Below, piece by piece: positions 9,250 through 37,049 of a stretch of DNA of 37,049 nucleotides. Source of the stretch: an uncultured beta proteobacterium (GTDB lineage Bacteria > Pseudomonadota > Gammaproteobacteria > Burkholderiales > Burkholderiaceae_C); contig CAIWPS010000147.1 of the NCBI GenBank assembly GCA_903914615.1, positions 1 through 37,049 on the forward strand, written 5' to 3'. Position 1 is the stretch's first letter; every line of letters starts with the position of its first letter. The notes below the pieces were generated by a model. That model ran no database searches. It was not told where the DNA came from and saw nothing but the letters and a program-made list of their open reading frames with translations. Made by a program: the position numbers and the translations under genes.

Positions 9250-9617
9250 GGCTTGCCTCGCGTGAGGGATTCAACGGCGGTTTGCAGGTTGCCGATAGGC
9301 CCGAGAAACTTGCCGAGCATGCGGTGCTGTTCACGAAGCGCCTCGACGATCGGGGTCTGTGCGGCCACGGTCTGGGCCATGAGGTCCGTCAGCCGATCGA
9401 GCCTGCGCGCCTGCTTGTCGACCTTGCCGTGCAGCGCTTCCACGCGGATCGGCAGCGGCGCCAGGTAGGTGTTTTGCGCGTGCACGTTGAGCTCGACGCC
9501 CCCGTACCGCTCCGCGTTGGCCTTCTCGAGCTCCTCCAGGCGCGCCGCGAGCTCGCGCAGTGCGCCCGGTACCGAGCGGGGCCGCTTCGCCGGCGCGCGT
9601 GGCGTTCGCGGCTTCAC
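9246..9617 (-). CDS. Coiled-coil hypothetical protein
   Basis: This is a 123-aa protein with a GTG start at 9617 forming a GTGA overlap with the upstream stop. A basic N-terminus is followed by long amphipathic helices (LRELAARLEELEKANAERY; VEALHGKVDKQARRLDRL) that suggest a coiled-coil oligomer. There is no membrane segment. Not recognised. Confidence 0.7.
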   Translation of the reverse strand: MKPRTPRAPAKRPRSVPGALRELAARLEELEKANAERYGGVELNVHAQNTYLAPLPIRVEALHGKVDKQARRLDRLTDLMAQTVAAQTPIVEALREQHRMLGKFLGPIGNLQTAVESLTRGKP

Positions 9618-10027
9618 CGGCTAACGTCCGCGCGGCGCAGGATGGTCACGCGCACGCCGTAGGTTTTCTCGACGACGGCGATCTTCACCCGGCTGGTCTG
9701 CGTCATAACGCCCTTCGTGTCCTCGATGGTGACGACGTCGTCGGCTGAACCGCTGCGGTTCCACACGACGAGAAAGTCCGCACGGTAGACCACACGGGGC
9801 GCGACGTCAAACGGCACTTGCCGCAGGAAGTACCGGACCTGGCCCCACTGCACCAGCTGCACGAGCTCGCGGTAGCGGTCCGCCTCGAGCTTGGAATCGA
9901 AGCGGATGCCGTTGCAGACCGTCGCCCGGTTCGCGAATTTCCCGCCGACGCGCTCGCTGAGCACGGGTGGCAAGTCCGCCGCACCGCCGCGCCGGCGCGC
10001 GTAGGCGGTCCAGGCGCTACGCGTCAC
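9614..10027 (-). CDS. DUF1064-type nuclease (PD-(D/E)XK fold)
   Basis: The start is placed at GTG 10027 (137 aa) because GGAGGG lies five bases upstream; ATGs at 10048 and 10054 lack a good ribosome site. The sequence fits DUF1064: IRFDSKLEADRYRELVQL with the first acidic residue, then RADFLVVW and IEDTKG as the D...(D/E)xK metal site. The family is thought to act as an endonuclease or resolvase in phage recombination, replication or packaging. The neighbouring origin and initiator gene support a DNA-metabolism role. Confidence 0.8.
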   Translation of the reverse strand: MTRSAWTAYARRRGGAADLPPVLSERVGGKFANRATVCNGIRFDSKLEADRYRELVQLVQWGQVRYFLRQVPFDVAPRVVYRADFLVVWNRSGSADDVVTIEDTKGVMTQTSRVKIAVVEKTYGVRVTILRRADVSR

Positions 10028-10226
10028 GGGCACCCTCCGCACGGTCATAGCCACAGGCGTTTTTGGCCGCGGCCAGGGACAGGAACGTCCCGAGCGGGTG
10101 CAGCCGGGTCCCGCCCATGAGCCGCTCGACGCGGTAGGCCCTCCAGCACTCCGGGCGGATGTACGTCACCCGGTAGCCCTCCGCGTGGTGGGTCCCGAAA
10201 TTTCCGAGCTCCTCGGTCCAGTCCAT
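10017..10226 (-). CDS. Small hypothetical protein
   Basis: This is a 69-aa alpha/beta-looking protein (GYRVTYIRPECWRAYRVE). Its ATG at 10226 has a good ribosome site (GGGGGAG, seven bases upstream). The stop lies 8 nt inside the next gene's GTG start, typical of this operon. Not recognised. Confidence 0.68.
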   Translation of the reverse strand: MDWTEELGNFGTHHAEGYRVTYIRPECWRAYRVERLMGGTRLHPLGTFLSLAAAKNACGYDRAEGARDA

Positions 10227-10277
10227 GGCCTTCTCCCCCTTGCCAAACTTCTCGGCTCCGCGGTCGCTGCCGCAAAG

Positions 10278-10286
10278 TTATCCACA
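10278..10286 (+). promoter_or_regulatory. Perfect DnaA box (TTATCCACA)
   Basis: TTATCCACA matches the DnaA box consensus exactly. It lies between the initiator gene stop and the next gene, beside an AT-rich patch. It is in the same orientation as the repeat array at 10568-10611. Confidence 0.7.
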
Positions 10287-10296
10287 GGGCTCTAGA

Positions 10297-10327
10297 TTCT
10301 TAGGATTTGTTCTTAGTTCTAGTTCTG
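10297..10327. promoter_or_regulatory. AT-rich repeat patch, candidate DNA-unwinding element
   Basis: TTCTTAG at 10297 and 10310 (13 bp apart), followed by TTCTAG at 10317 and TTCTGG at 10323, form an AT-rich block unusual for this GC-rich genome. It sits between the DnaA box at 10278 and the iterons at 10328. Origins commonly place a melting element beside such repeats. The role is inferred. Confidence 0.5.
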
Positions 10328-10791
10328 GTCCGCATTTTGTCCGCAATGTGTCCGCATTGCGTCCGCACCGCGTCCGCTCGCGTGGTACGCTTGCGGTCGG
10401 CGTCGACTGCCCGACGCTTCGCTAAGGTGCCGTTATGATTGTGGAAATTCGGGAGCGTTACCTGGCCGTCGACGACTTGAAGCCACTCCGGCGGGAGGAG
10501 GTCGCAGATGCCCTTAATGCCGGTGAATTGGTCTACGTCGTCCGGAGTGAACGGAGTACGGTCGAAATCATCCACAGCCTGCTCACAGGTTATCCACAGG
10601 ATACTCACAGCCCCGATGGCCATGGCGACAAACGCATTATGGTCAATCGGGGTTTGAGTTCCGCCGGTGACGCGGCCCCGATCGCGGGCGGCTAACTCGC
10701 GCGCGATTCGGTGGATCCGTGCATCCAGGTAAAGGCTCTTTTCGAGCTTGACCCAGGGGCCCTGGTGGGCTGGCCGTGGGGGCCTCGTCAT
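10300..10791 (-). CDS. Replication initiator, RepO/DnaD-like N-terminal type
   Basis: This is a 163-aa protein. The start WVKLEKSLYLDARIHRI, the middle IKGICDLLPPEWLQV and the signature LPNFHNHNGTLAKRRAVDAD resemble the N-terminal winged-helix part of phage replication proteins of the lambda-O/replisome-organiser type, where 'F-HNG-AKRRA--A-R-KR' is common. No C-terminal helicase-loader domain follows; the tail is Arg/Lys/Thr-rich. The ATG overlaps the HTH gene stop (ATGA). The coding region contains two 11-bp-phased repeat arrays and is flanked by a DnaA box, so the gene probably contains the origin, as lambda O does. The assignment is by pattern, not search. Confidence 0.7.
   Translation of the reverse strand: MTRPPRPAHQGPWVKLEKSLYLDARIHRIARELAARDRGRVTGGTQTPIDHNAFVAMAIGAVSILWITCEQAVDDFDRTPFTPDDVDQFTGIKGICDLLPPEWLQVVDGQVTLPNFHNHNGTLAKRRAVDADRKRTTRADAVRTQCGHIADKMRTRTRTKNKS
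10328..10382 (+). repeat. Five 11-bp iterons (core GTCCGC)
   Basis: Units start at 10328, 10339, 10350, 10361 and 10372: GTCCGCATTTT, GTCCGCAATGT, GTCCGCATTGC, GTCCGCACCGC, GTCCGCTCGCG. The first six bases are invariant and the period is exactly 11, about one helical turn. Because 11 is not a multiple of three, the repeat cannot come from a repeated peptide, although it lies inside the coding 3' end of the initiator gene. It probably binds the initiator protein. Confidence 0.85.
10568..10611 (+). repeat. Four 11-bp DnaA-box-like repeats inside the initiator gene
   Basis: Units are TCATCCACAGC (10568), CTGCTCACAGG (10579), TTATCCACAGG (10590) and ATACTCACAGC (10601). All share CACAG with an exact 11-bp period. 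The third contains a perfect DnaA box and the first differs by one base. The period does not match codons. This looks like a helically phased DnaA-binding array forming part of the origin. Confidence 0.82.
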
Positions 10792-10988
10792 GGCGCCGGC
10801 GGCGTGCGCACGCGCCGATAGGACTCGTAGGCCTCGAGCCCGAGGTAGGCCAGCAGCCGGGGTCCTGGCAGCTTGCGGCCATTGAGGACCTTGCCGACAA
10901 AGGCGCCAGAGACGCCCGCCTCACGGCCGACGTCCCGCAGGGTGCGGCCGCGACAGCGGGCGGCCAGTTCGCGTTGTGCTAGGTTCAT
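10788..10988 (-). CDS. Cro/XRE-like helix-turn-helix regulator
   Basis: This is a 66-aa protein, about the size of Cro. The HTH spans RTLRDVGREAGVSGAFVGKV followed by LNGRK: helix 2, turn (AGVS) and recognition helix. It is the first leftward gene, and its ATG at 10988 overlaps no other gene. The candidate leftward promoter would start RNA only about 8 nt upstream and no Shine-Dalgarno is visible, resembling the leaderless lambda cI message. The two ACCGCARCGGT palindromes just upstream are its likely operators. Whether it acts as a Cro or as the lysogenic repressor cannot be decided. It is the only obvious repressor-type gene in the genome. Confidence 0.78.
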   Translation of the reverse strand: MNLAQRELAARCRGRTLRDVGREAGVSGAFVGKVLNGRKLPGPRLLAYLGLEAYESYRRVRTPPAP

Positions 10989-11002: not shown

Positions 11003-11031
11003 GCGATACCCGCTAGACCGCAACGGTTAAA
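11003..11031 (-). promoter_or_regulatory. Candidate leftward promoter
   Basis: On the minus strand TTTAAC (11031-11026) and TATCGC (11008-11003) are separated by exactly 17 bp. Each matches three of six consensus bases, so it is weak alone. Supporting points are the correct spacing, the position in front of the first leftward gene and the palindrome 11017-11027 in the spacer. Confidence 0.4.
11017..11027. promoter_or_regulatory. Operator O1 (ACCGCAACGGT)
   Basis: This 11-bp interrupted palindrome has ACCG/CGGT arms. It differs by one base from O2 at 11058-11068, and the centres are 41 bp apart, about four helical turns. It lies in the spacer of the candidate leftward promoter. It is probably bound by the adjacent HTH protein. 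Confidence 0.62.
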
Positions 11032-11046: not shown

Positions 11047-11075
11047 TTGACGGCGATACCGCAGCGGTCTACCCT
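11047..11075 (+). promoter_or_regulatory. Candidate rightward promoter
   Basis: The -35 TTGACG (11047-11052, five of six) and -10 TACCCT (11070-11075, three of six) are 17 bp apart. Transcription would start near 11082, and GAGGGAG (11094-11100) precedes the ATG at 11105. Operator O2 lies wholly between the two boxes. Confidence 0.6.
11058..11068. promoter_or_regulatory. Operator O2 (ACCGCAGCGGT)
   Basis: This perfect palindrome has five-base arms around a central A. It lies inside the 17-bp spacer of the rightward promoter, so a bound repressor would block RNA polymerase. It pairs with O1 at 11017-11027. Flanking 8-bp repeats are also present: GCGATACC at 11003 and 11053, and TAGACCGC/GCGGTCTA at 11014 and 11064. 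Confidence 0.65.
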
Positions 11076-13023: not shown

Positions 13024-13340
13024 CACTCAACCACAACCTGAGCGTCGCGACGCTCCTCGCGACCGCGCACGCCCTCGTGCGCCGCGGATTCGAGACGGAC
13101 CTCCTGCGGCAAGGGCCGCTGGCCGCGAAGGAACGCCCGCGGTCGCGGGGCTTCCGGTTCTCGCAGGTGCGCTCGCCGTATTTTTTGTCGCCGACGGTCA
13201 CGACGTATGACCGGCGCGGCCCGGACACGCTCATGGCCGCGCAGGACAAGCGCGTCCGCAAGGCCCTCAAGAGGGTGCGCGACCAGAACCGATGCGCGCA
13301 CGGGCAGCTGGCGCGGCAACCGCTGCGGGGGCTGCTGTGA
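13020..13340 (+). CDS. Basic hypothetical protein
   Basis: 106 aa from ATG 13020 (ATGA overlap). It is strongly basic (RRGFETDLLRQGPLAAKERP; RVRKALKRVRDQNRCAHG) with an aromatic middle (RFSQVRSPYFLSPTVTTYD). Charge suggests nucleic-acid binding but no motif is recognised. Its stop overlaps the next ATG (TGATG). Confidence 0.68.
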   Translation: MTLNHNLSVATLLATAHALVRRGFETDLLRQGPLAAKERPRSRGFRFSQVRSPYFLSPTVTTYDRRGPDTLMAAQDKRVRKALKRVRDQNRCAHGQLARQPLRGLL

Positions 13341-13597
13341 TGGGCACCGTATCGGTCAACGTCCAAGCGCAGGTGTTCGTCGACGAGGAGGTCGACGTCG
13401 AGCTCCGCGAGCTCGTCGAGGACCTTACCGACGACCAGGCGCAGGAACTCCGCGAGCTTCTCGAGCGCAGGCTTGCCCTGGCCGGCAATGGCCGCGGCGA
13501 CTTGCTCGAGGCGGCGTACCTCGCCATGCGCGGCCGCGCGGACTGCCCGGACGTGCTGCGCGAGTATTTTTGGAAGGTGCTGGGGAGGGTGTTATGA
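13340..13597 (+). CDS. Acidic helical hypothetical protein
   Basis: 85 aa from ATG 13340. It is rich in Asp/Glu/Leu (EEVDVELRELVEDLTDDQAQ, ELRELLERR), probably a helical bundle or short coiled coil. Its acidity contrasts with the very basic product of the preceding, overlapping gene, so a partner pair is possible but unproven. Not recognised. Confidence 0.68.
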   Translation: MGTVSVNVQAQVFVDEEVDVELRELVEDLTDDQAQELRELLERRLALAGNGRGDLLEAAYLAMRGRADCPDVLREYFWKVLGRVL

Positions 13598-13941
13598 CGG
13601 ATCAGTTGCAGGAGCCCGCCACGTTCGTGTGGAAGCCCATGGGCATGATGCTCGAGCGCGTGCATGGCACGTTGGTTGACGAGGCGGCGCCGCGGTTCGT
13701 GCTGCTGCTGGACTACCGGCGCGACATCCGCCAGGCGCGGCCGAAGTCGCCCGCCGCCGATGCCGTGTCGTTCGTGGCCATGCGCGAGTGCGAGCGCCTG
13801 CAAGGGTTTCCCGACGACTACACGGCGATCCCGTATCGCGGCAAGCCGGCCAGCGACGGCCCGCGCTACAAGGCGCTGGGGAACTCGATGGCCGTTCCGG
13901 TCATGCGCTGGATCGGCGAGCGGATAGGTCAGGTCAAGTGA
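13594..13941 (+). CDS. C-terminal-only cytosine-5 DNA methyltransferase-like protein
   Basis: 115 aa from ATG 13594 (ATGA overlap); upstream track sequence is a shadow. Residues about 64-73 (RECERLQGFP) followed by DDYTAIP match motif IX, and residues about 92-103 (YKALGNSMAVPV) match motif X of C5 methyltransferases, in the form usual for phage Dcm proteins. Motif I (DLFSG-like), the catalytic PC motif IV and ENV motif VI are absent here and nothing in the window supplies them. So it cannot methylate alone. It may be a degraded remnant, a domesticated DNA-reading stub, or a subunit of a split enzyme. Residues 1-50 are not recognised. Confidence 0.78.
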   Translation: MTDQLQEPATFVWKPMGMMLERVHGTLVDEAAPRFVLLLDYRRDIRQARPKSPAADAVSFVAMRECERLQGFPDDYTAIPYRGKPASDGPRYKALGNSMAVPVMRWIGERIGQVK

Positions 13942-16738: not shown

Positions 16739-18772
16739 TTACATTTGGGCCCAGGCGCCCGTGTTGCCATTGAAAGACAGCTTGTACGCACTGCCCGCGG
16801 CGAGCAGCTGGTTTCCGCCGCTGGTCCATTTCACCGCACCGCCGCTGGTGCCATAGCTCATGGTCGTGAAGCCGTCGCCGTAGAGGGTGAGCTCCATGCC
16901 CTGCACGCCACCGGTGATGCCGGCGACGGTCGTCGCGCCGACGTTCGCGGCGTACAGCTGATTGACCCATCCCCCCTGGCCCAAGGTCGTGCCTTGCAGG
17001 TAGACGGTGCAGTTGGCGGTCGACGTGAAGGTCTTGGAGCCGGGCACCGCCGGCGACGGCGATGCGTTTTGGTCCCAGCGCTGCAACGGCGTGGCGGTCG
17101 CCACCTGCACGCCATTGCTCACTACCCAGGGGATGGTGTTGTAGCAGAGCGGGTGATTGTCGATGATGGCGCGGATGTTGGCCGTGCCGAAGAAGTTATA
17201 GAACGCGGTCGTGCCCACGGTCGTGGCCCACGAGTTGCGCGCCGCGTAGAACGCCTGCGTCTGCTCGAGAAACAGCGCCTGGCTGACCACGGTGGCGCCG
17301 GACAGGTAGCCCGAGCAGCCCTGCACGTTGAGCCCGTTGACGTAGACGGTGCCCGTCAGGCCCTGGCCGCAGGCAATGTAGGCGGTGATGGTCGTGCCCG
17401 AGGAAATGGTGTCCTCGAAGTCCGAGTTGATGATGTCCACCTGCGAGCAGCCGACGGTGGCCGCCTTGGAGCTCACCTGCACGCCGATGCCGCCGGACTC
17501 AAAGGCGCAGTTCTGGATGAGCGTGTTGTTGGCGCGGTCGACGTTGAGGCTGGCCGGACAGTTGGCGTTGGCCCCCTGGATCCAGACGTGGTCAAAAGTG
17601 GTGTTCGTCGACAGCCCGCTCGCGAAGTTGGTGGCATCGAGCTCCACCTGGCCATAAGCGGCCGAGCCGCAGGCGGTGATGTAGGAGTCGGACACCCGCG
17701 TGACGAGGGTGTTGTTGAGGTAGATGCCGCGGCCGGGCACGCCACGCACGACGACGTCGCGGATGATCCCCATTTCGGTCTGGTTGAGGAGGATGCCATT
17801 CACGATGCCGGCGGTCTGGCCGCCATTGATCTGGAGGTCGCGGATGGTGCCCGCCACCTTCCAGGTACCGGCGACGCCAGCGCTGTTCACGTTGATGACG
17901 TTCGTCACGCCCGTGGTCGGCGCGATGATGGTCTGTGCCTTGCCGTCACCCACGAGGTTGACCGCGAACGGGCCTGAGCCACCCTGGAGCCACTGCGAGC
18001 CAAAGGGGACGATGATGTCCGCGTTGGTCGCGTAGGTGCCGGCGGGCATGCGGAACTCGCCGACGTTGCCGCGGCCCGCGGCATTGAGGCCTGCGTTGAG
18101 GGCCGCGGTGGTCGCGGCCGCGTTGACGCCCAGGTTGTTCGCGCCATAGCGCAGCGCGTTACCGTAGGGCCAGTAGGGCAGCGCGACCGTGGCGCCGGCG
18201 GCGGTCTCGGCCGCGGACGTGGGATAGAGAAAGCCACCGATCGAATTCGCGGACAGCGAGCCCGAGGGCAGCGTCTGCGCGAGCGACACGTTGCCATTGC
18301 CATCGAACGTGAGCACGGTGTTCTCGCGCGCCAGCGCCGACGGAAGATTGAAGTTGAGCGGGTTGGTGTCCGCGTCCGGCGCCTTGACGCACCGATTCAT
18401 CTGGTCCTGGAGGGCCAGGACCATTTGCACGGCGCGGTCGAGCGCGGTCTGGATGGCCGCCGTCGGGAAGGCCTGGCCCTGCACCAGCTGCGTCGGCTGG
18501 GTCTGTGCGGGCCTGAGGATGACTTGCAGCGTATCGCCGGCGGGCCAGGCGGTGCCGGCGAGCGTGGTCATGGTCCAGGCCGGCGGGCTCAGGGAGCCGG
18601 AGCTCACGAGCGAATAATCGCTATTGAGCGTGAACGTGGTCTCCAGGCCTGCGGCGGTCGTGTGCGTGACGACAAAATCGACGTTGTAGTATGCCTGGAT
18701 CGGCACCGGAAAGACGGTGGTGACGCCATCGCAGTTGAAGGCGACGCGGGTCGTGGCGGATGCGATGGTCAT
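16739..18772 (-). CDS. Tail spike / tail fibre with right-handed beta-helix
   Basis: 677 aa. The N-terminal ~130 residues (NCDGVTTVFPVPIQAYYNVD, IQTALDRAVQMVLALQDQMN) are the virion-attachment domain common on podovirus tail fibres. Residues about 190-530 have pectate-lyase-like beta-helix rungs (GIIRDVVVRGVPGRGIYLNN, NNTLIQNCAFESGGIGVQV, SQVDIINSDFEDT) containing repeated short N/I/V turns. A beta-rich C-terminal domain follows, ending GAWAQM. It probably binds and may degrade a host surface polysaccharide. Catalytic residues cannot be assigned. The ATG overlaps the giant gene's stop (TAATG). Confidence 0.88.
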   Translation of the reverse strand: MTIASATTRVAFNCDGVTTVFPVPIQAYYNVDFVVTHTTAAGLETTFTLNSDYSLVSSGSLSPPAWTMTTLAGTAWPAGDTLQVILRPAQTQPTQLVQGQAFPTAAIQTALDRAVQMVLALQDQMNRCVKAPDADTNPLNFNLPSALARENTVLTFDGNGNVSLAQTLPSGSLSANSIGGFLYPTSAAETAAGATVALPYWPYGNALRYGANNLGVNAAATTAALNAGLNAAGRGNVGEFRMPAGTYATNADIIVPFGSQWLQGGSGPFAVNLVGDGKAQTIIAPTTGVTNVINVNSAGVAGTWKVAGTIRDLQINGGQTAGIVNGILLNQTEMGIIRDVVVRGVPGRGIYLNNTLVTRVSDSYITACGSAAYGQVELDATNFASGLSTNTTFDHVWIQGANANCPASLNVDRANNTLIQNCAFESGGIGVQVSSKAATVGCSQVDIINSDFEDTISSGTTITAYIACGQGLTGTVYVNGLNVQGCSGYLSGATVVSQALFLEQTQAFYAARNSWATTVGTTAFYNFFGTANIRAIIDNHPLCYNTIPWVVSNGVQVATATPLQRWDQNASPSPAVPGSKTFTSTANCTVYLQGTTLGQGGWVNQLYAANVGATTVAGITGGVQGMELTLYGDGFTTMSYGTSGGAVKWTSGGNQLLAAGSAYKLSFNGNTGAWAQM

Positions 18773-21700
18773 TAATCTTCCCTCCGCGGCGCGTCAGGGG
18801 GCAATCCCATGGCGTCGCCGAGTTTTTGCTCCAGGTGGTTCACGCCACGCCGCAGGTACCATATTTGATTTCCGGGCAGCATGCGACGGATACGGTGGAT
18901 GTCGCCCCGGCTGAAATGCGCGTCCTGCGGGTTGTGAGTGATTTGGCCGCGGATCTTTGCGGGGATTCTTAAATCCCACGCGTCGACAGCGGTGCCGGCG
19001 ACCGGGCCGCCGAGCGTCTCCCAGGTCTGGCGATCGCCCCAGCGGCTGAAGTTGCCCATGCCGAACTGCCACAGCACGGGGTAGAAGAATTCCCCTACCC
19101 AACCGAGCAGGTTGGATTTATCCAGGACCTCCAGCGCGAAGCGGTCCGGGTGCTTCTCGATCGGCTGCCCGGAGGCCAGCTGCTTGAGCACGTAGGTGGC
19201 GGTACCGGCGCCGATCAGGGTGGCCAGTGCGGAGGCGCTGCGCAGGTCGCCGCGCGCGACACCTTGGGCCAGGGGGATGACGAGCTTGCGGATGGCGACG
19301 GCGCCAAAGGTCTTGAACTGGAATATGCACTTGCCGACTTCCGAGCTCGTCCACAGCGGGGTATCGCCCACGCCCGGTGAGAGCGTGGAGCTCTCGCCGG
19401 CGCGCATCGTCAGATTGTCCACCGCCTGCGCGGCCGCGTGGTCCGTCCACTTGTAGGTGCTGCCCATGCGCAGGCCATTGACGGTGCGGCCGTAGCTCTG
19501 GAACTGGTCCGCGATGCGATGGAGCATGCCCTGGTCGATGCCGTTGTTGTTGAGGCGCGTGCGGTCACTGACGGACAGCGCTTCACCGGCGCGCGCGCGG
19601 GCGGCCAGGTCGAGTATCTCGTCATGCGCGGCCGCGGCACTCCAGGCCTTGGTGCTCGCAATCCATGGCGTCTCGAGGGTGGCGATGGTGAACGCGCGCG
19701 TACCGCGGTTCAGTGCTTTCTGGAAGGCATAGGCGGACTCGACGCCATACTCGCCCAGCTGCGCGGCGGTGGAGTTGTGCACCATGTCCATCGCCGTGCC
19801 CATGCGCTGCATTTCCCGGCGGGTGAGCTTGAGCGCTTCCATCGAGGAGGCGAGCTTCATGGCCGTGGCGAACGTGCGGGTGAGCCCATTGCGCAGGACC
19901 GCGTTGCCGAGGTCTGGGATATGCGAGGCGGTGGCGGTGCCGAGGAAGCGGAACGCGTTAACGCTGCGGATGCCGCGTGCGATGCGCTGGAACCATCCCG
20001 TGGGATCGGACGGCGTGCCGAAGATGCCGTAGAGCCGGTCGCGCAGGGCCTTGAGGTCGCGGACGTCCGTGTTTTCGCGGCGGTTGAGGGCATTGGCGGT
20101 GGTCTGGTCGCCCTGCGCGAGCGCGCGCTGCTTCAGAAGCGCGTACTCGTCCTGGACCCGCTGGAAGGCATCGATCATGTCCTTGTCGCCAAAGGCGCGG
20201 GTGATTTCCACTTGCGGCGCGAGCGACTTGATGTACGCGTGGCTCAGGACGTCGATGTCATTGGTCAGGTACTTCTCGAGCAGCACGTCGGGCATCAGGA
20301 GCTCACGCGCCTTGAGCCGCCCCGACGTGGGGGCCAGGTCCTTGAAGATTGACGGGTTGTGATCTAGGAACCCGAGCTCACTGCCGAGGATGTTGGCCGT
20401 TACGCGGTGCGCGACGTTGTCGGCCTCCGCGCGCTCAAGGCCCTGCTTCTCGAAGTGATCGGCCAGGATCTGGTGCCAGTTGACGCGGTCAGCGCGGATC
20501 GCGGCGCGGTCGTACTGGCGCATGAGGTAGGACTCGGCCGTCCCGCCGAGGAGCTCCTGCTGCTTAGGGAGCAGCCCGAGCTCCTCCGCCTCGGCCTTGA
20601 GCGGATCGAACGCGATCGAGCGCGTCGCGCGCGCGGCCTCCTGCACTTCCGGCACGACGTGGCGATCGCCGCGGCGCATGGCGGCGGACACTTCCTGATT
20701 GAACTGGTGACGGTCCAGGCGCACCGGCTCCGTGGGCCCGAGGTCGCGCAGCTTGTACTGGCGATACAAGTCATCGCGCGCGCGCCACGCTTCGTTCCAC
20801 TTGCCTTCCCAGGCCTTGAGCAGCGTCTCCACCGATTTCGGGGTCGGCACGCCATTCGGCCGCTCTTTGGTCGGGACGTTCATCTCGAGCATTTCGGGCA
20901 TTTCGGTCAGATGCACGAGCACGCGGCGCACCGCGAGCGACGGCGAGCGCAGGGTGCGCAGCGACGGGTAGAACCATCCCAGCGCCTTGCCGAGCGCGCG
21001 GCCACCGCGGGCCAGGCGCAGGTCCCCAAGGGTGTACTCGTTGGCGGCCTGGAACGCACCGACGGTGCTGCCCTCCGGCGCGGCGGTGGGAGTGCCGTGG
21101 TCCAGGTCGCGCAGGCGCTGCTCGAATTCCCCGCGCTCCTCGAGCGGGAGGCGGCCGAGCATGTCGACCAGGTCATTCTGGCGCACCGCCTGGCTGAACA
21201 GGTCCGACGGGTCGCCCGTCTCGGCCGACTCCTGGCCGCCGTTCCTCAGTCCGTCGCGGCGGCGGATCTCGTCGGCGAGGGCCTGGGTGCTGGTGGGCCG
21301 CTCTCCAAAGAGGTCTGTTTCAGCGCGAGCTCGCCCGCCGGACTCGGCCCCTCCTGTTTCGTCGGCTGTACGGGCTCCGGTGGCAGGTTCGTCCCCGCCG
21401 CCGCCTGCCTCGCGAGCAGGTCCTCCGGCGGCAGGCCCGTCGGTAAATCTCCCAGCCGGCTCCGATTCTTCTGGGCCACTTGCAGCAAGCTTTGCGTCCG
21501 TGTCGTGCGCATCGAGGGCCTCCTTTACGTGCCGCATGAAGGCGGTGTCATCGTTCTCGAACCGGCGCGCCAGCGTCTCGACGAGGCCCTCGTCGATCGA
21601 CGCCAGGCGCGACACCATGGCCACCTGCCAGACGTCGTTGGGATTCTCGGCCGATAGGTGCTCGACGCCCTCGAAGTCAGACGGGTGGGCCAGGAAGGGC

Positions 21701-24700
21701 TCCGAGCTCGTGCGCTGGTCTGCGACGCTGACCATGTAATCGAGCAGCATGCGCTGGCGTTCGCCGAGCCCGTCACCGCGCAGGGCCTTTTCCACGGCGT
21801 TCTGCACTTCCGGCACGGTGAAGCCGGACTCCGACTTCTCCGACCGGCGCGGCATGCCCGGCCACCAGTGCGAGTTGGGCAGCCACTTGGTGCGGCCGAC
21901 GATGACGTTGTAGTCGATATGGCTGGGGTCCTCGGTCTTGCGAATGATCGAGCCGCCGATTTCCTGCCATCCCCCTTGCTCGTAGGCCATCTGCCGCAGC
22001 GTCTCGCGCAGCACGTCGTCGCCAGCCAGGCGCCGCAGGCCCTCGTCGGGCGCGGCCGCGACGCGTGCGGCCCTGGCCGCGTCGATGTCCGCCTGGGTGG
22101 CGAGCATGCGGTCCATGACCTCACGCACCGCCTGCGGCGCACGGCCGAGCGCGGTGGTGTCCAGTCGCGTGAGGGCCTGGTAAATCTGCGTGAGCCACTT
22201 GCGGAACTGGTCGAAAACCGCTTGCAGGCGCGTACTGGGGGCCACGCCCTCGGCCGCGTAGCGCTCAAAGGCCTGCGCAAAGGCCTCGTGATAGCGGCGC
22301 TGCTCGTCCAGCGGCATTGCGTGCCAGGCATCGACGTCCTTGACGCGGAACCAATCCATGAGGGTCTGGACGTCCTGGCGGATCGACAGCGGGGCATCGG
22401 CGTAGGCGCCTATCTCGGTATACAGGTCCAGGAAGTGGTGCCCCGCCTCGTGCACGAACGTCGACAGGTCACGCGCGGCGGTGATCGACATGGTGTGTGT
22501 CGAGGGGTCATACGCGCCGCGGCCGCCGCCCTGGAACAGCGGCTGCCCGGCGAGCGCGGCGTCGCGCATCGCGGGCGGTATGTCCATCGAGTGCACGGTC
22601 ACGGCCGGCGGGGTTTCTGGCGGCGGCGTGGTCAGGTTCGCGGCGCGTCGCTCGAGGTCGCGGTAGTGCAGAGTCTCCTGGGGTGTCAGGTCGTCCTGGT
22701 AGAGTCGGCCCGCCTCGTAGATCGCCTCGAGCTCGCGGATGCGCTCACGGTCGCGCTCGTTGAGCTCCTCGAGGTTGTCAGTCGAATACAGGTGATTGAG
22801 CTCTGAGCTCTGCTCCGGGTTGAGCCCTGAGCGGCGCTCGTGCTCCTCAAGCGCGGCGCGCTCCTCCTCGGTCAGCGGCGTGTGCTCGAGCCGCTGGAGC
22901 AGGTCTCCGCGGCGAATCTGCTCCTCCGCGGTGAGGCTATGGCCCTCGATGGGTCCGTCCGCGTTGCGGCGCGCGTCGCGCTCGTTGAGGCGCTCGAGCT
23001 CTCCGCGCTCCTTCGGATTGAGCGGGGCGGTGTGATCGCCGATCTGTGCGCCATGCTGGCGCAGCCGCCGCTCGAGGTCGTCCAGGCGCGCGCCTTCCGC
23101 CACGTCAAAATTCCGCAGCGGATCCATGCTGTGAACGCGCAGCCGCGTGAGCTCGTGCTGCTCCGCTGGCGTGAGCCCGCGAGACTCGCCGAGCGCGCGG
23201 TCCAGGTGCTGGGTGTCGCGCATTTCGTTGCCGTCGGACGCGGCCACCCGCGCCTCGCGCTCGCTGCTGTAGACGCGGCCCGTGATGCCGCCATCGTCGA
23301 GCAGTTCCCACTGGTTCGGGCCAGTCTCGTGCACGGTGTAGACCGCCGGGCCGCCGTTCCCGTCCGGCTCCTGGCCATGTGGGACGACCTCGATGGCGGC
23401 GTCCGGGTGCAGCGCGCGGTAATGGTCGACGGTCGCGCGCAGGTTGGCGCGGTGCACGCCCTCCTCGGCGAGCTCGTTGCGCACGTGCACGTCAAAGTGC
23501 GTTTGAGAGTGCTCGCCACCGCGGCCATCGCCGCCGAGCTCCTTCTCCCCGACGGTGGCGCCATACTTCTTGCCGAGCTTCTTGGCGAACGCGGGCAGCA
23601 TCTTGTCGTAGAAGCCCTGCATGCCCGAGCCGCCGACGGTGAGGTCCTTGCCCGCGAGCTCGCCGCGCGGCTCGCCGCCGAGTACCTTCTGGGCCGCGTC
23701 CTGGCCAATGACTTCGGCCAGGGTCTTACCCTTCGCGTCGGCTGCCGATGAGTCTTTAATCGTGCCCTTGTTGATGTCGACGTCCGCGGTAAATACCGGG
23801 CGGCCCGCCTTGTGCGCGCTGACGACGACGGTGCTGTTGCGGAATAGATCGGTACCGATGTCCGCCGCCGGCGGAGCCCATCGGATGCTGTCGACGGCCT
23901 GGCGCAGTTCGTGGGTGTAGCGCTCCGCCTGGGTGGCGCCGCGCGTCCAGGTGATGCGCTCGAAGCCATTCTCCGCGGCGTGGCGGACCATGGCCTTGAA
24001 CGCGAGCTCCGGCCAGGACTTCTTGAACGGCGCATCCGGGAGCAGGTCGGTGGTGCCGCCACCCTGCACCTGCTCCTCGGCGGCAGCCCAGCGGCGTCGC
24101 TCGTTGAGCGCGCGGGCGATCGGCCCGCGGTGCTCCTCCGGGACGTTGTAATGCTGCCACCACAGCGGGTCCTTGAGGAATTCGTTGTACATGTCGCGCG
24201 CGTTGGGGAAGCCTGCCTTGTCGATCGCGTCGACGGAGGGCTTGGCTGCGTCGACGGCGTCGTTGTGGTTTTTCCTGATGAGGTCGAGCGCGGTGGCGCT
24301 AAAGCCGCGCGGGTTCTGGTACAGCCAATTTCGCTCGCGCTGGAGCGCACCGATGTCCTTGCCGGCTTTCTCGCGCTCCGTGATGAACTTGTAGGCCTCG
24401 CGGCGCTGCTCTGGCGTGCGCGCCTCGTCGTGCAGCGCTTCGTGGAGGTCCGTCTCCGGGGGATACCCGTGCTTGTCGAGCCACTCGCGCACGCGCCGGT
24501 CATACCCCTGGCCGAAGTACTTGTCATGCGCCTCGTCGATTTGGCGGTTGAGCTCCTGGATGCGCGCCTCGCGGCGGATCGGGTCGAGGATGTCGTAGCC
24601 GCTTTCGCGGCCCGCCTGGTGCCAATCGGACTGGATTTCCTCGATGTGGAGCTCGCGCTTGCCATCCGCGCCGATGCGCTCGTTGGTGCGCACGTGCGCC

Positions 24701-27681
24701 AGGATGTTTGGCTGGCTCCAGTGCCCGGAGTTATAGGCGCGGGGCTGGTTGGCCTTGGTGTCGGTGGGCTCGCCGTGCTTGGCGAGCTCCTCGTCACGCT
24801 CGCGCTCGAGCTCCCGGATGCGGTCCCGGCTGTCCATCATGGCGTCATGGTCGCGGATCGCCCCCTGGCGCCGGGACTCGGCGCGGATCTTCTCCTCGTA
24901 CTCGGCCGCGATGCGCCGGCGCGCGGCGTAGTCGACGCCCGGATCGAGCTTGCTGAGCTCGTGGTCCATGAGGTCCTGGTCGATGTCGCGCAGCTTTTTC
25001 GTCCCGGCGAGCTCGTCGCGCCACTGCTGGAGCTTCACCGGCTCGTACTTTTCGCCGTACTCGGCGACCGAGCGGCGGATCATGTTCTCGAGGGTCTGGA
25101 TTTGCGCGTGGTGCTTGTTCTCCTGCGACGCCCAATAGGCCTTGCGCTCATGCAGGACGTTCGTCGGCCGATCGAGCGTGAGGAGGTGCTCCTTGTTATT
25201 GGAGCCGCCGGGCAGGTTGTATTGGTCGTAACGGACCGACTCGGCCAGGTTGTCCAGGTCCATGACGATGTGCGCGGCATCGGCCGGCAGGTCGCCGAGG
25301 TCGCGCTCCTCGCCGGTCGCGCGGTCCGTGACCACGGGACTCTCGCCGGGATAGTCGCCGGGGGTGATGTCATAGCCCATGGCGCCCAGGCGGTCGACGA
25401 GCTCGCGCTCACGCGCGACGTCGTAGCCGTTGCGGATTTCCTTCACCGCTACCTGGTTGGCGCGCATGTGCTCAAGCAGCTGCTCACGCGTGACGGTGCC
25501 CGTGCGCGATTCGAGCCAGGGGCGCACGCCCATCCACTCGAGTTCCTCCTTGGTCACGCCCTTGGTCGTGAGGTTCTCCAGCGTCTTGAGCCACTGCTCC
25601 GGCGAGGCCTTGGTCATCGGCAGCGACTCGACGCCCCGGATGGCCGCCGAGTAGAACGGATCGGCCAGCGCTTGTGCCAGGCCACCGGGCAGCGCTTCGC
25701 CGGTGATGTGCAGCGGGGCCATGTCAAACAGCGCGTCGGGGGTGATCCCCAGCCGATCGGCGAGCGTGTGGTAGCCCTCGCCGATCAGCGCGGCGTAGGC
25801 CTGCGCTTCCTTTGGCGTATAGCGGTCGGTCGAGGCCAGCGCATCAAGCACGTGATGCTCGACGTTCGGCGCGCCGCTGACGGGCCGCCACCCGCTGCGG
25901 TGGCCGCCACCGCGGGTGGTGGGCAGCACCTGCTCGTGCTGGAACGGGATGTAGTAGGTCGGCCCGCCGGCGTGGCTCGCGTCGATGACCAGGCCATCAT
26001 GCCCGGCGGCGATTTGCTCGTTGCGCCAGGCGGTCGCCTCGGCGTTGCTCGCGAAGTTGGGGAGCTCGTCGTGGCGCAGTTCCAGCGGGTGCTCGATGTT
26101 GAGGTGATGCTCCGTGACGGGGCCCATGGCCGCCGCGTCAGCCGCCGTGCCCGTGAATACGGGCCCCAGCGCGGAGGTTGGCCGCCCGGTCTCGGCCGTC
26201 AGCCGGGCAGGCTCGAAGTCGCGCTTGCTGAGCCGCCGGCCGCCGCGATAGACGGGGAGAGGTTCGCCGCTCCGGCTGCCTGCTCCTTCAACGCCGCGTG
26301 CGTTGCGGCCAGCTGGTCCGCCAGGAACTGGCTCGCCGGATTCTCCTGGAGCAGCTGCTCCAGCGCCTTCGGTGGGTGATACGTCGGATCGTAGGCCCTG
26401 GAATTCGTGGCTAAGCTCATAGGGGGGCTCCGGGACGGGTTCGGGGTTATGTTCTGCGTGGAACCGCTCTAACTGCTCGCGGGCCTCGAGGGCCGCCTGG
26501 GCCCGTGCCTGGTCCTCGAGCGCGGCGGCGTGCTCTGTCTGGAGCCCGAGCCCGGCCCTGGTCTCCTCCCATAAGGCCCACAGCCGGCCCACGGCGCGCT
26601 CACGGAGCACGTGGGGCAGATCCTCGCCGTAGGTCGCCTCGAGCCGCTCACGCACGGACTCCGGCTGCTGGAGTCGCTCGACTTCCTGCGCAATGGCCGC
26701 CTCGCGCGCCTCCGGCGGGGGCTCCGCATGGGCATCCAGGGCCGCCTGGGCCGCCTGTAGCCGGTCCTGAGCCGCCTGGGGGTCTATGCCCTGCGCGGCG
26801 GCGTGGGCCTCGGCGGCGGCCTGCTGGAGCCGCTGGGAGTGCTCCGCGAGCCGCTGGCGCACGTCGGCGGCGATCCGTTCGGCGGTATCGCCCTCCGGCG
26901 CGACGTAGGTGGGTATGCGCTCCGCGAGGTCGCGCTTGAGGGTCTCCTGGATCCGCGCAATGTCGGCCGCGGTCTGGTGGGTATCCCCGCCATGGTGCAG
27001 GACACCGCCGAGGATGCCGGCGAGCAGGGTGCCCTCGCCGAGATTCAGGGCATTTTCGTACAGGCCCTGCGGCGCGTTGGGGTCAATCTGGCGCATGGCG
27101 ATCTGCTGCGCCGCGCTGGTGGCGCCGCCGGTGATCGCAAAGCGCACGGCGTTGGCCAGGCGGGTCGGGGCTGCGGGGGTGAGCATGGCCGCTGCGCCGA
27201 TGACATCCAGATTGCCGGCTGCAAAGCCGATGAGGCCCTGGTGCTTGGAGGCCATGAGGGCCTGCGCGTCGCGGTCCTGGGACTGGAGCTCCTCATAGCG
27301 CTGCTGGATTTCCTCCGGGGTGAACAGCCCGCCGTATTTGGACGCGCGCCATTCCTCCCCCGGTGGGATGGCGACGTTGGGGTCCGCCTTGCGGGGATCC
27401 GAGCCCGCGCCGAGATACCGCCAGTTGATGTCATCCGGTGGGCCCTGGTGCGAGCCGGCGATGACGAGGTCATCGAACGCGCGGCCCTGCACGGTGTTGC
27501 GCAGCGCGGCGGCGGTGATGTCCAGCGCCGAGTATTTCGGCGAGTTGGCGCCCGTGCCGCCATTGGCGTCGGGGTCGGGCAGGTTGCCGAGCGGGCGGTT
27601 GTAGACCGGCCCCTGCGGCATGAAGTTGGTCTGATCCGCAGCCGGATCCGGCGCGCCAGCGGTGGGGTTGGTCAGCGGCAT
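18772..27681 (-). CDS. Giant polyvalent internal virion protein (2,969 aa)
   Basis: A single frame covering 24% of the genome. Visible regions: a hydrophobic Gly/Ala segment near 170-240; coiled coil about 250-440; an ADP-ribosyltransferase-like stretch about 478-585 (VYRGG; GHDGLVIDASHAGG; HEQVLP), tentative; a block typical of phage large polyvalent proteins about 1000-1380 (IEEIQSDWHQAGRESGYD; KSWPELAFKAMVRHAAENGF; GMQGFYDKMLPAFAKKLG); seven degenerate Leu/Glu repeats about 1503-1680; a zincin site HEAGHH at 1744-1749; and a C-terminal ~400 residues (NAFRFLGTATASHIPDLGN onward) like the conserved polyvalent tail domain. It probably enters the host with the DNA, taking the place of T7 gp16-like ejection proteins. 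Antisense ORFs here are shadows. Confidence 0.9.
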   Translation of the reverse strand: MPLTNPTAGAPDPAADQTNFMPQGPVYNRPLGNLPDPDANGGTGANSPKYSALDITAAALRNTVQGRAFDDLVIAGSHQGPPDDINWRYLGAGSDPRKADPNVAIPPGEEWRASKYGGLFTPEEIQQRYEELQSQDRDAQALMASKHQGLIGFAAGNLDVIGAAAMLTPAAPTRLANAVRFAITGGATSAAQQIAMRQIDPNAPQGLYENALNLGEGTLLAGILGGVLHHGGDTHQTAADIARIQETLKRDLAERIPTYVAPEGDTAERIAADVRQRLAEHSQRLQQAAAEAHAAAQGIDPQAAQDRLQAAQAALDAHAEPPPEAREAAIAQEVERLQQPESVRERLEATYGEDLPHVLRERAVGRLWALWEETRAGLGLQTEHAAALEDQARAQAALEAREQLERFHAEHNPEPVPEPPYELSHEFQGLRSDVSPTEGAGAAAPGESGEPVPGGPAGRNARGVEGAGSRSGEPLPVYRGGRRLSKRDFEPARLTAETGRPTSALGPVFTGTAADAAAMGPVTEHHLNIEHPLELRHDELPNFASNAEATAWRNEQIAAGHDGLVIDASHAGGPTYYIPFQHEQVLPTTRGGGHRSGWRPVSGAPNVEHHVLDALASTDRYTPKEAQAYAALIGEGYHTLADRLGITPDALFDMAPLHITGEALPGGLAQALADPFYSAAIRGVESLPMTKASPEQWLKTLENLTTKGVTKEELEWMGVRPWLESRTGTVTREQLLEHMRANQVAVKEIRNGYDVARERELVDRLGAMGYDITPGDYPGESPVVTDRATGEERDLGDLPADAAHIVMDLDNLAESVRYDQYNLPGGSNNKEHLLTLDRPTNVLHERKAYWASQENKHHAQIQTLENMIRRSVAEYGEKYEPVKLQQWRDELAGTKKLRDIDQDLMDHELSKLDPGVDYAARRRIAAEYEEKIRAESRRQGAIRDHDAMMDSRDRIRELERERDEELAKHGEPTDTKANQPRAYNSGHWSQPNILAHVRTNERIGADGKRELHIEEIQSDWHQAGRESGYDILDPIRREARIQELNRQIDEAHDKYFGQGYDRRVREWLDKHGYPPETDLHEALHDEARTPEQRREAYKFITEREKAGKDIGALQRERNWLYQNPRGFSATALDLIRKNHNDAVDAAKPSVDAIDKAGFPNARDMYNEFLKDPLWWQHYNVPEEHRGPIARALNERRRWAAAEEQVQGGGTTDLLPDAPFKKSWPELAFKAMVRHAAENGFERITWTRGATQAERYTHELRQAVDSIRWAPPAADIGTDLFRNSTVVVSAHKAGRPVFTADVDINKGTIKDSSAADAKGKTLAEVIGQDAAQKVLGGEPRGELAGKDLTVGGSGMQGFYDKMLPAFAKKLGKKYGATVGEKELGGDGRGGEHSQTHFDVHVRNELAEEGVHRANLRATVDHYRALHPDAAIEVVPHGQEPDGNGGPAVYTVHETGPNQWELLDDGGITGRVYSSEREARVAASDGNEMRDTQHLDRALGESRGLTPAEQHELTRLRVHSMDPLRNFDVAEGARLDDLERRLRQHGAQIGDHTAPLNPKERGELERLNERDARRNADGPIEGHSLTAEEQIRRGDLLQRLEHTPLTEEERAALEEHERRSGLNPEQSSELNHLYSTDNLEELNERDRERIRELEAIYEAGRLYQDDLTPQETLHYRDLERRAANLTTPPPETPPAVTVHSMDIPPAMRDAALAGQPLFQGGGRGAYDPSTHTMSITAARDLSTFVHEAGHHFLDLYTEIGAYADAPLSIRQDVQTLMDWFRVKDVDAWHAMPLDEQRRYHEAFAQAFERYAAEGVAPSTRLQAVFDQFRKWLTQIYQALTRLDTTALGRAPQAVREVMDRMLATQADIDAARAARVAAAPDEGLRRLAGDDVLRETLRQMAYEQGGWQEIGGSIIRKTEDPSHIDYNVIVGRTKWLPNSHWWPGMPRRSEKSESGFTVPEVQNAVEKALRGDGLGERQRMLLDYMVSVADQRTSSEPFLAHPSDFEGVEHLSAENPNDVWQVAMVSRLASIDEGLVETLARRFENDDTAFMRHVKEALDAHDTDAKLAASGPEESEPAGRFTDGPAAGGPAREAGGGGDEPATGARTADETGGAESGGRARAETDLFGERPTSTQALADEIRRRDGLRNGGQESAETGDPSDLFSQAVRQNDLVDMLGRLPLEERGEFEQRLRDLDHGTPTAAPEGSTVGAFQAANEYTLGDLRLARGGRALGKALGWFYPSLRTLRSPSLAVRRVLVHLTEMPEMLEMNVPTKERPNGVPTPKSVETLLKAWEGKWNEAWRARDDLYRQYKLRDLGPTEPVRLDRHQFNQEVSAAMRRGDRHVVPEVQEAARATRSIAFDPLKAEAEELGLLPKQQELLGGTAESYLMRQYDRAAIRADRVNWHQILADHFEKQGLERAEADNVAHRVTANILGSELGFLDHNPSIFKDLAPTSGRLKARELLMPDVLLEKYLTNDIDVLSHAYIKSLAPQVEITRAFGDKDMIDAFQRVQDEYALLKQRALAQGDQTTANALNRRENTDVRDLKALRDRLYGIFGTPSDPTGWFQRIARGIRSVNAFRFLGTATASHIPDLGNAVLRNGLTRTFATAMKLASSMEALKLTRREMQRMGTAMDMVHNSTAAQLGEYGVESAYAFQKALNRGTRAFTIATLETPWIASTKAWSAAAAHDEILDLAARARAGEALSVSDRTRLNNNGIDQGMLHRIADQFQSYGRTVNGLRMGSTYKWTDHAAAQAVDNLTMRAGESSTLSPGVGDTPLWTSSEVGKCIFQFKTFGAVAIRKLVIPLAQGVARGDLRSASALATLIGAGTATYVLKQLASGQPIEKHPDRFALEVLDKSNLLGWVGEFFYPVLWQFGMGNFSRWGDRQTWETLGGPVAGTAVDAWDLRIPAKIRGQITHNPQDAHFSRGDIHRIRRMLPGNQIWYLRRGVNHLEQKLGDAMGLPPDAPRRED

Positions 27682-36867: not shown

Positions 36868-37049
36868 TTAGTTGGGCATGCCACCGACGATGCGGTCGCG
36901 CAGGGCATCGACCTCGCCCTGCATGTTCCGCCACTGGTGATCGTTGATTTTCCCGGCCGCGCGATCGGCCGTGATCTGGTCCAGGCGCGACTGAGCTTCG
37001 GAGGCGCCACCTTGGAAGCGGGTGCCATGGCCCGCCTCGCCGGCAAAGC
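36868..37049 (-). CDS. Scaffolding protein, C-terminal end (completes the gene at 1-922)
   Basis: From 37049 to 36909 the sequence repeats bases 141-1 of the window. From 36908 to the TAA at 36868-36870 lie the missing last codons (DALRDRIVGGMPN). Joined across the circle this completes the 320-aa scaffold protein. The track ORF covering the region is in the wrong frame. Confidence 0.88.
   Translation of the reverse strand, partial: FAGEAGHGTRFQGGASEAQSRLDQITADRAAGKINDHQWRNMQGEVDALRDRIVGGMPN
36909..37049. repeat. Terminal 141-bp direct repeat, right copy
   Basis: This is an exact copy of bases 1-141. It indicates that the assembly closed on itself, and that the unique genome is 36,908 bp. 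Confidence 0.93.

Follow-up and report, generated by a model that had tools for sequence, protein, structure and literature searches.

The window, by which we mean the whole stretch of 37,049 nucleotides that was analysed, carries the same 141 bp at both of its ends (1-141 and 36909-37049), which indicates a circular phage genome of 36,908 bp rather than an integrated prophage in this assembly. The contig encodes an integrase as well as a terminase, a head-tail adaptor, a major head protein and internal virion proteins, a gene content that identifies the phage as a temperate podovirus. A single reading frame of 2969 aa on the minus strand (18772-27681) matches in its C-terminal part an internal virion protein with an endolysin domain (phrog_342, phrog_16310), and a plus-strand ORF (13207-13938), with a match to C-5 cytosine methylases limited to their last ~50 aa, might be a remnant or a fusion.

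The initiator gene and its neighbours

The minus strand at 10300-10791 contains a replication-initiator gene of 492 bp, assigned through the match of its 163-aa product to the profile phrog_2509 ('replication initiation protein', E 7.7e-18). The match is confined to profile positions 31-135 of 277 and corresponds to the N-terminal domain of the family; the C-terminal half of the profile is unmatched, so that the initiator of the window, like those of the whole five-member clade described below, is a short form in which the C-terminal half present in the other relatives is missing. No Pfam family was found for the protein at E-values up to 0.1, including Rep_3 (PF01051) and RepA_N (PF06970). 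An AlphaFold2 model with a mean pLDDT of 89.5 predicts helices, a short beta hairpin and a long C-terminal helix. Foldseek returned no significant match for this model, and a structure comparison gave weak winged-helix-like matches, to CRP (Z about 5) and to 4pql/4pt7 (Z 4.3), among many unrelated entries of equal Z. The latter two are presumably entries of RepA_N initiators. Because the Foldseek search yielded nothing significant and the winged-helix-like matches are middling, we claim no fold for the initiator; the model is compatible with a winged-helix initiator or with none and neither proves nor excludes it. The sole match of the protein in a sequence search of solved structures, to a ferritin, was rejected as spurious.

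Downstream of the initiator gene, the minus strand encodes a DUF1064 or Holliday-junction-resolvase-like protein (9614-10054, profile matches), and in C511, in the viral contig L106 (both introduced below) and in Klebsiella phage BUCT711 a DUF1064-type gene likewise follows the initiator at a short distance. Upstream, in the same leftward gene row, follows a small helix-turn-helix protein (10788-10988, minus strand) with weak HTH matches in PHROGs and Pfam. An ORF of 86 aa in the opposite orientation (10435-10695) has no PHROGs match and was taken as spurious. The HTH gene and the rightward genes diverge, and the DNA separating them holds an imperfect inverted repeat, TAGACCGCAACGGT / ACCGCAGCGGTCTA (11014-11027 / 11058-11071), a candidate operator.

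Phased repeats within the initiator coding sequence

Four tandem 11-mers on the plus strand, TCATCCACAGC, CTGCTCACAGG, TTATCCACAGG and ATACTCACAGC, fill positions 10568-10611 without a gap and with a period of exactly 11 bp, precisely as the initial annotation had described them. Each consists of a DnaA-box-like 9-mer followed by 2 bp, namely TCATCCACA (10568), CTGCTCACA (10579), TTATCCACA (10590) and ATACTCACA (10601). The perfect DnaA box that had been noted in one of the repeats is TTATCCACA at 10590-10598; TCATCCACA has a single mismatch, the remaining two 9-mers are weak with two and three mismatches, and the 3' CACA is kept in all four. By their single orientation, their 2-bp separation and the inclusion of a high-affinity site, the repeats would qualify as an oriC-type DnaA array. 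The low-affinity arrays of E. coli oriC consist of four weak DnaA sites each, likewise at 2-bp separation (PMC6070618, PMC6727663). An 11-bp period is the sum of a DnaA 9-mer and a 2-bp spacer, and the geometry thus matches that of the published arrays; the period, which had been put down to helical phasing, is real and is more than helical phasing alone.

The array lies about 180 nt into the initiator gene and wholly within the conserved coding stretch GAVSILWIT, a location that would suit a chance product of the encoded protein and the codon usage, without any function of the DNA. Against this stands the outcome of recoding the initiator gene with the amino-acid sequence fixed and the codon usage of the phage itself, as in none of 20,000 synonymous resamples did any 5-mer occur four times in phase within the array region, and in eight of the 20,000 one occurred three times. 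Two further observations set out below, the occurrence of the same 17-mer in other viral contigs lacking a related gene and the presence of a second box outside the gene, also speak against coincidence, which we regard as barely credible. The box TTATCCACA taken by itself is expected in the initiator gene in 2.2% of the synonymous resamples, and the array uses codons that are rare in the phage (AGT 4.4%, ATA 4.5%, TGT 6.7%). The array is conserved at the same codons in four relatives of the same clade (C511, L106, L257 and L260); when the window, C511 and L106 are compared, however, codon identity at the array does not clearly exceed that in the rest of these genes and is indecisive as evidence.

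The 17-mer AGTATCCTGTGGATAAC was found in 22 viral contigs, and besides L136, which is the L106 contig, no clear initiator relative is encoded at these sites. Its occurrence in contigs without a related gene indicates a DNA motif used by phages outside this protein and not a protein motif alone. Of the 21 distinct sites listed, 18 have a unit directly upstream of AGTATCCTGTGGATAAC that also starts with NTGT[GT], and in seven contigs (L120, L122, L124, L127, L134, L137 and L140) the sites are part of longer CTGTGGATAAC arrays. Scores of at least 8/11 against the CTGTGGATAAC consensus are reached by 21% of the 11-mers at phased and 2% at unphased positions, counts that are inflated by near-copy contigs. 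Tandem 11-bp DnaA arrays of the CTGTGGATAAC type are thus also seen in viral contigs without this rep gene (L120-L141, for example L134, L127, L137 and L140).

The initial annotation had placed a second 11-bp array in the same 492-bp gene, and it is indeed present about 190 bp away. This iteron array, to which we refer as array 2, comprises five GTCCGC cores on the plus strand at 10328, 10339, 10350, 10361 and 10372 (10328-10377), again with an 11-bp period, and its position is taken in relatives by GTCCGC, GTAACG or GTCAC iterons. It adjoins a putative DNA unwinding element at 10273-10338, an A+T-rich segment with short CCAGAACTAGAACTAAGAAC-type repeats that is predicted to have the lowest duplex stability anywhere in the genome, with a 60-step nearest-neighbour energy of -76.3 compared to a genome mean of -98.2 (SD 4.5) and a next separate minimum of -82.1. 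Tandem phased repeats at an initiator gene next to an unstable A+T-rich element are the hallmark by which an iteron-type origin is recognised. At the far edge of the element, a second perfect DnaA box TTATCCACA is found by exact motif match on the plus strand (10278-10286). Both arrays lie within the initiator coding sequence, and this second box lies just 3' of the gene; it is present in C511 and L106 and has one mismatch in L257 and L260.

Exact matches to TTWTNCACA occur twice in the window, at 10278 and 10590, where 0.21 are expected. Boxes with at most one mismatch amount to three in the whole window compared to 4.8 under a Markov null, so that there is no genome-wide enrichment, and all three are clustered within 330 bp. 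The dnaA-proximal region of the host itself contains two perfect TTATCCACA boxes and one TCATCCACA, and the host DnaA would be expected to recognise the TTATCCACA-type boxes of the phage. The GC-skew profile along the window, proposed earlier as a check on the origin, was computed and displays no clear switch; it is uninformative on the origin.

The phrog_2509 family and its short-protein clade

Searched directly at the nucleotide and protein levels, the window itself retrieved nothing from phages and plasmids or in the first viral scan, two scans of genome contigs gave no relative, and among 81 genomes of the host's genus the initiator gene occurs in its own genome only. Relatives of the initiator include epsilon15 rep, Rac ydaU and the corresponding genes of Klebsiella BUCT711, phiPSA1, Xanthomonas CP2/Olaya, PAN70 and VW-6S. 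When the genes of these relatives were written in 11-bp rows, two 11-bp-phased clusters were visible inside the gene in most of them, and a set of 68 non-redundant relatives showed this to be a family trait, which the window gene shares. The presence of two such arrays in one gene, which the initial annotation had considered unusual, is therefore the rule in this family. In the relatives the second cluster is followed by a purine-rich AGAGAAGAGAAG or CCAGACCAAGACC tract. Across the 68 members, matches of 5-mers at lag 11 number 392 compared to 70 (SD 9) in synonymous shuffles, with more peaks at lags 22 and 33; the peaks at lags 5, 10 and 15 stem from the purine tract. Paired same-core iteron clusters together with a purine-rich tract of 5-6-bp repeats are seen across the rep genes of L090-L105, L006-L008, L107-L119 and L158-L237.

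The iteron cores are of three types, GTCCGC, GTAACG and GTCAC. Array 1, as we call the first cluster, and array 2 have the same core in 52 of the 55 typable members, an agreement that exceeds the permutations (mean 24, maximum 37) and is inflated by shared ancestry. On a tree of 36 members the core has switched at least eight times, and this concerted change between the clusters provides material for the study of how initiator specificity changes. The sharing of one core by both clusters and its switching between lineages point to one protein reading both, in the simplest reading most likely the initiator itself. A requirement of the whole family for a DnaA box was rejected, as an exact box is found in only seven of the 68 relatives.

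The relatives closest to the window form a clade of short proteins. C511 (39,081 bp, L003), another contig of this assembly, encodes a sister initiator of 133 aa, a further member is found in the viral contig L106, and two more, L257 (134 aa) and L260 (about 130 aa), came from a later, separate scan. In the window, C511 and L106, the first cluster is a DnaA-type array with AGTATCCTGTGGATAAC at the same codons, and the second box lies beyond the A+T-rich element. The array is also present in both of the later-found members, and the long-Rep relatives L259, L262, L266 and L269 from the same step have no box. At L260:2612-2655, the four phased units CTGTGCATAAC, CTGTGTAGGAG, CTGTGTGTATC and CTGTGGATAAC include two perfect DnaA boxes and make up the strongest array of the clade.

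Array 2 has the core GTCCGC in the window, GTCAC in C511 and GTAACG in L106, and mixed cores also occur in the clade. A DnaA-type array that stays constant while the iteron core changes is what would be expected if a host factor reads the one and a phage protein the other. The repeats at 10568-10611 could instead be a decayed first iteron cluster that is still bound by Rep, ATCCACA resembling GTCCGCA, with the likeness to DnaA boxes being secondary. They do stand where the first cluster of the family stands, and TTGTCCGCA and TTATCCACA are only two transitions apart. Nevertheless, the array is DnaA-like in C511, L106, L257 and L260 despite array-2 cores of GTCAC, GTAACG or mixed type, and decay would not lead iterons to the DnaA consensus in every one of them, let alone to two perfect boxes as in L260, which makes decay very unlikely.

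The five members are monophyletic (support 100/99) and nested among long-Rep relatives, and their proteins, of 127-163 aa, are the only short ones seen, compared to 211-344 aa in the other relatives. The nesting of a clade with both traits among long Reps implies that the array was gained on the same branch on which the C-terminal half was lost; given the shared ancestry of the five members, the two changes count as one event. A causal link between them would accord with this pattern, which is only suggestive of it.

A candidate hybrid origin and its known counterparts

Taking the locus and its relatives together, we consider it probable that 10273-10611, within the 3' two-thirds of the initiator gene and just past its stop codon, is the origin of this temperate podovirus and is of a hybrid iteron/DnaA type. 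The phage Rep would bind the five phased GTCCGC iterons, and host DnaA would bind the strong box at 10590, spread from there onto the weak 2-bp-spaced flanking sites as at oriC, and also occupy the box at 10278. Jointly, Rep and DnaA would open the A+T-rich element that lies between the 10278 box and the iterons, and the DnaA array would recruit host DnaB/DnaC. This last step is proposed because the short Rep lacks the C-terminal half and because searches of this contig for the DnaB_C and IstB/DnaC families, which would miss a very divergent loader, gave no match. An origin served by host DnaA and a phage initiator had already been suggested by the initial annotation, and this reading is well supported by sequence and comparison, that is, by the initiator gene, the weakest duplex, the second perfect box, the boxes in the dnaA region of the host and the relatives. 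Which protein binds which site, that replication starts here and that DnaA stands in for the lost helicase-recruiting part are points that we infer.

DnaA is also a transcription regulator, and clusters of its boxes can titrate it. It is hence conceivable that iterons and origin are real, and that DnaA bound at 10568-10611 controls how the initiator operon is transcribed or is titrated there, with Rep and host proteins loading the helicase as in the long-Rep relatives, of which epsilon15 and Rac ydaU manage without a DnaA array. However, the array lies about 180 nt inside the gene, which is no promoter position, in the half of the gene that holds the first iteron cluster of the relatives, and throughout the clade a second box is directly adjacent to the melting element; we therefore judge regulation or titration to be unlikely, albeit the most serious of the alternatives.

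Compared with the hybrid origin, the evolutionary scenario we put forward is more tentative and somewhat less likely than not. The clade initiator may have shed a helicase-recruiting C-terminal part while an oriC-type DnaA array written within its codons replaced the first iteron cluster and helicase loading passed to host DnaA, alongside family-wide paired in-gene iteron clusters whose cores switch in concert. A self-sufficient phage origin would in this way have turned, within coding DNA, into one driven by host DnaA. If true, this would be a natural case of host DnaA replacing the helicase-loading role of an initiator.

Hybrid origins of plasmids such as P1, F, RK2, pSC101 and R6K combine phased iterons, an A+T-rich element and adjoining DnaA sites, with Rep and host DnaA cooperating (PMC5043065). 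The window combines the same elements, but its sites are embedded in the coding region of a phage initiator gene, the initiator belongs to phrog_2509 without a Rep_3 match, and its DnaA array is of the four-site oriC type. Phage lambda has iterons and an A+T-rich element inside the initiator gene O (PMC7466680, PMC5043065). Similarly, the iterons of the window lie within the initiator gene with an A+T-rich element alongside. The lambda iterons are about 19 bp long, whereas the cores in the window are 6 bp at an 11-bp phase and are accompanied by a DnaA array; we know of no such array in the lambda origin. Like the low-affinity arrays of E. coli oriC, the window has four DnaA sites at 2-bp separation together with a strong site, but here the array is written in the codons of a phage gene and the strong site lies inside the array. 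In RepA_N initiators of the pSK41 type, the boxes are central in rep, and an N-terminal DNA-binding domain is joined by a separate C-terminal replisome domain (PMC5703833). The window resembles these in its putative initiator boxes inside the gene, and the structure comparison gave the weak match of the model to 4pql/4pt7 noted above (Z 4.3, a value also reached by many unrelated entries). It differs in that its protein has neither a Pfam match nor a C-terminal domain and belongs to a phage of a Gram-negative-type host. The epsilon15 rep and Rac YdaU, of the same family, share the two in-gene 11-bp-phased clusters and the downstream purine-rich tract; unlike the window protein, they are long, with a C-terminal DnaT-like part according to the record note, and their first cluster consists of the iteron core and not of DnaA boxes.

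Each component is thus known, and the window combines the mixed origin of plasmids, the in-gene origin of lambda and the in-rep boxes of pSK41. In the open-access literature searched, we found no description of their joint occurrence within codons, of the exchange, in one clade, of an iteron cluster for an oriC-type DnaA array, or of the family-wide paired clusters. The paired in-gene clusters can readily serve to predict origins in epsilon15, in Rac and in Xanthomonas and Pseudomonas phages and, if the reading is true, would amount to a family-wide testable map of phage origins (including Rac ydaU) in which the DNA serves both as code and as initiator sites. Within the assembly studied here, the iteron core of the sister initiator gene on C511 differs from that of the window, and the two phages of the clade may share one host.
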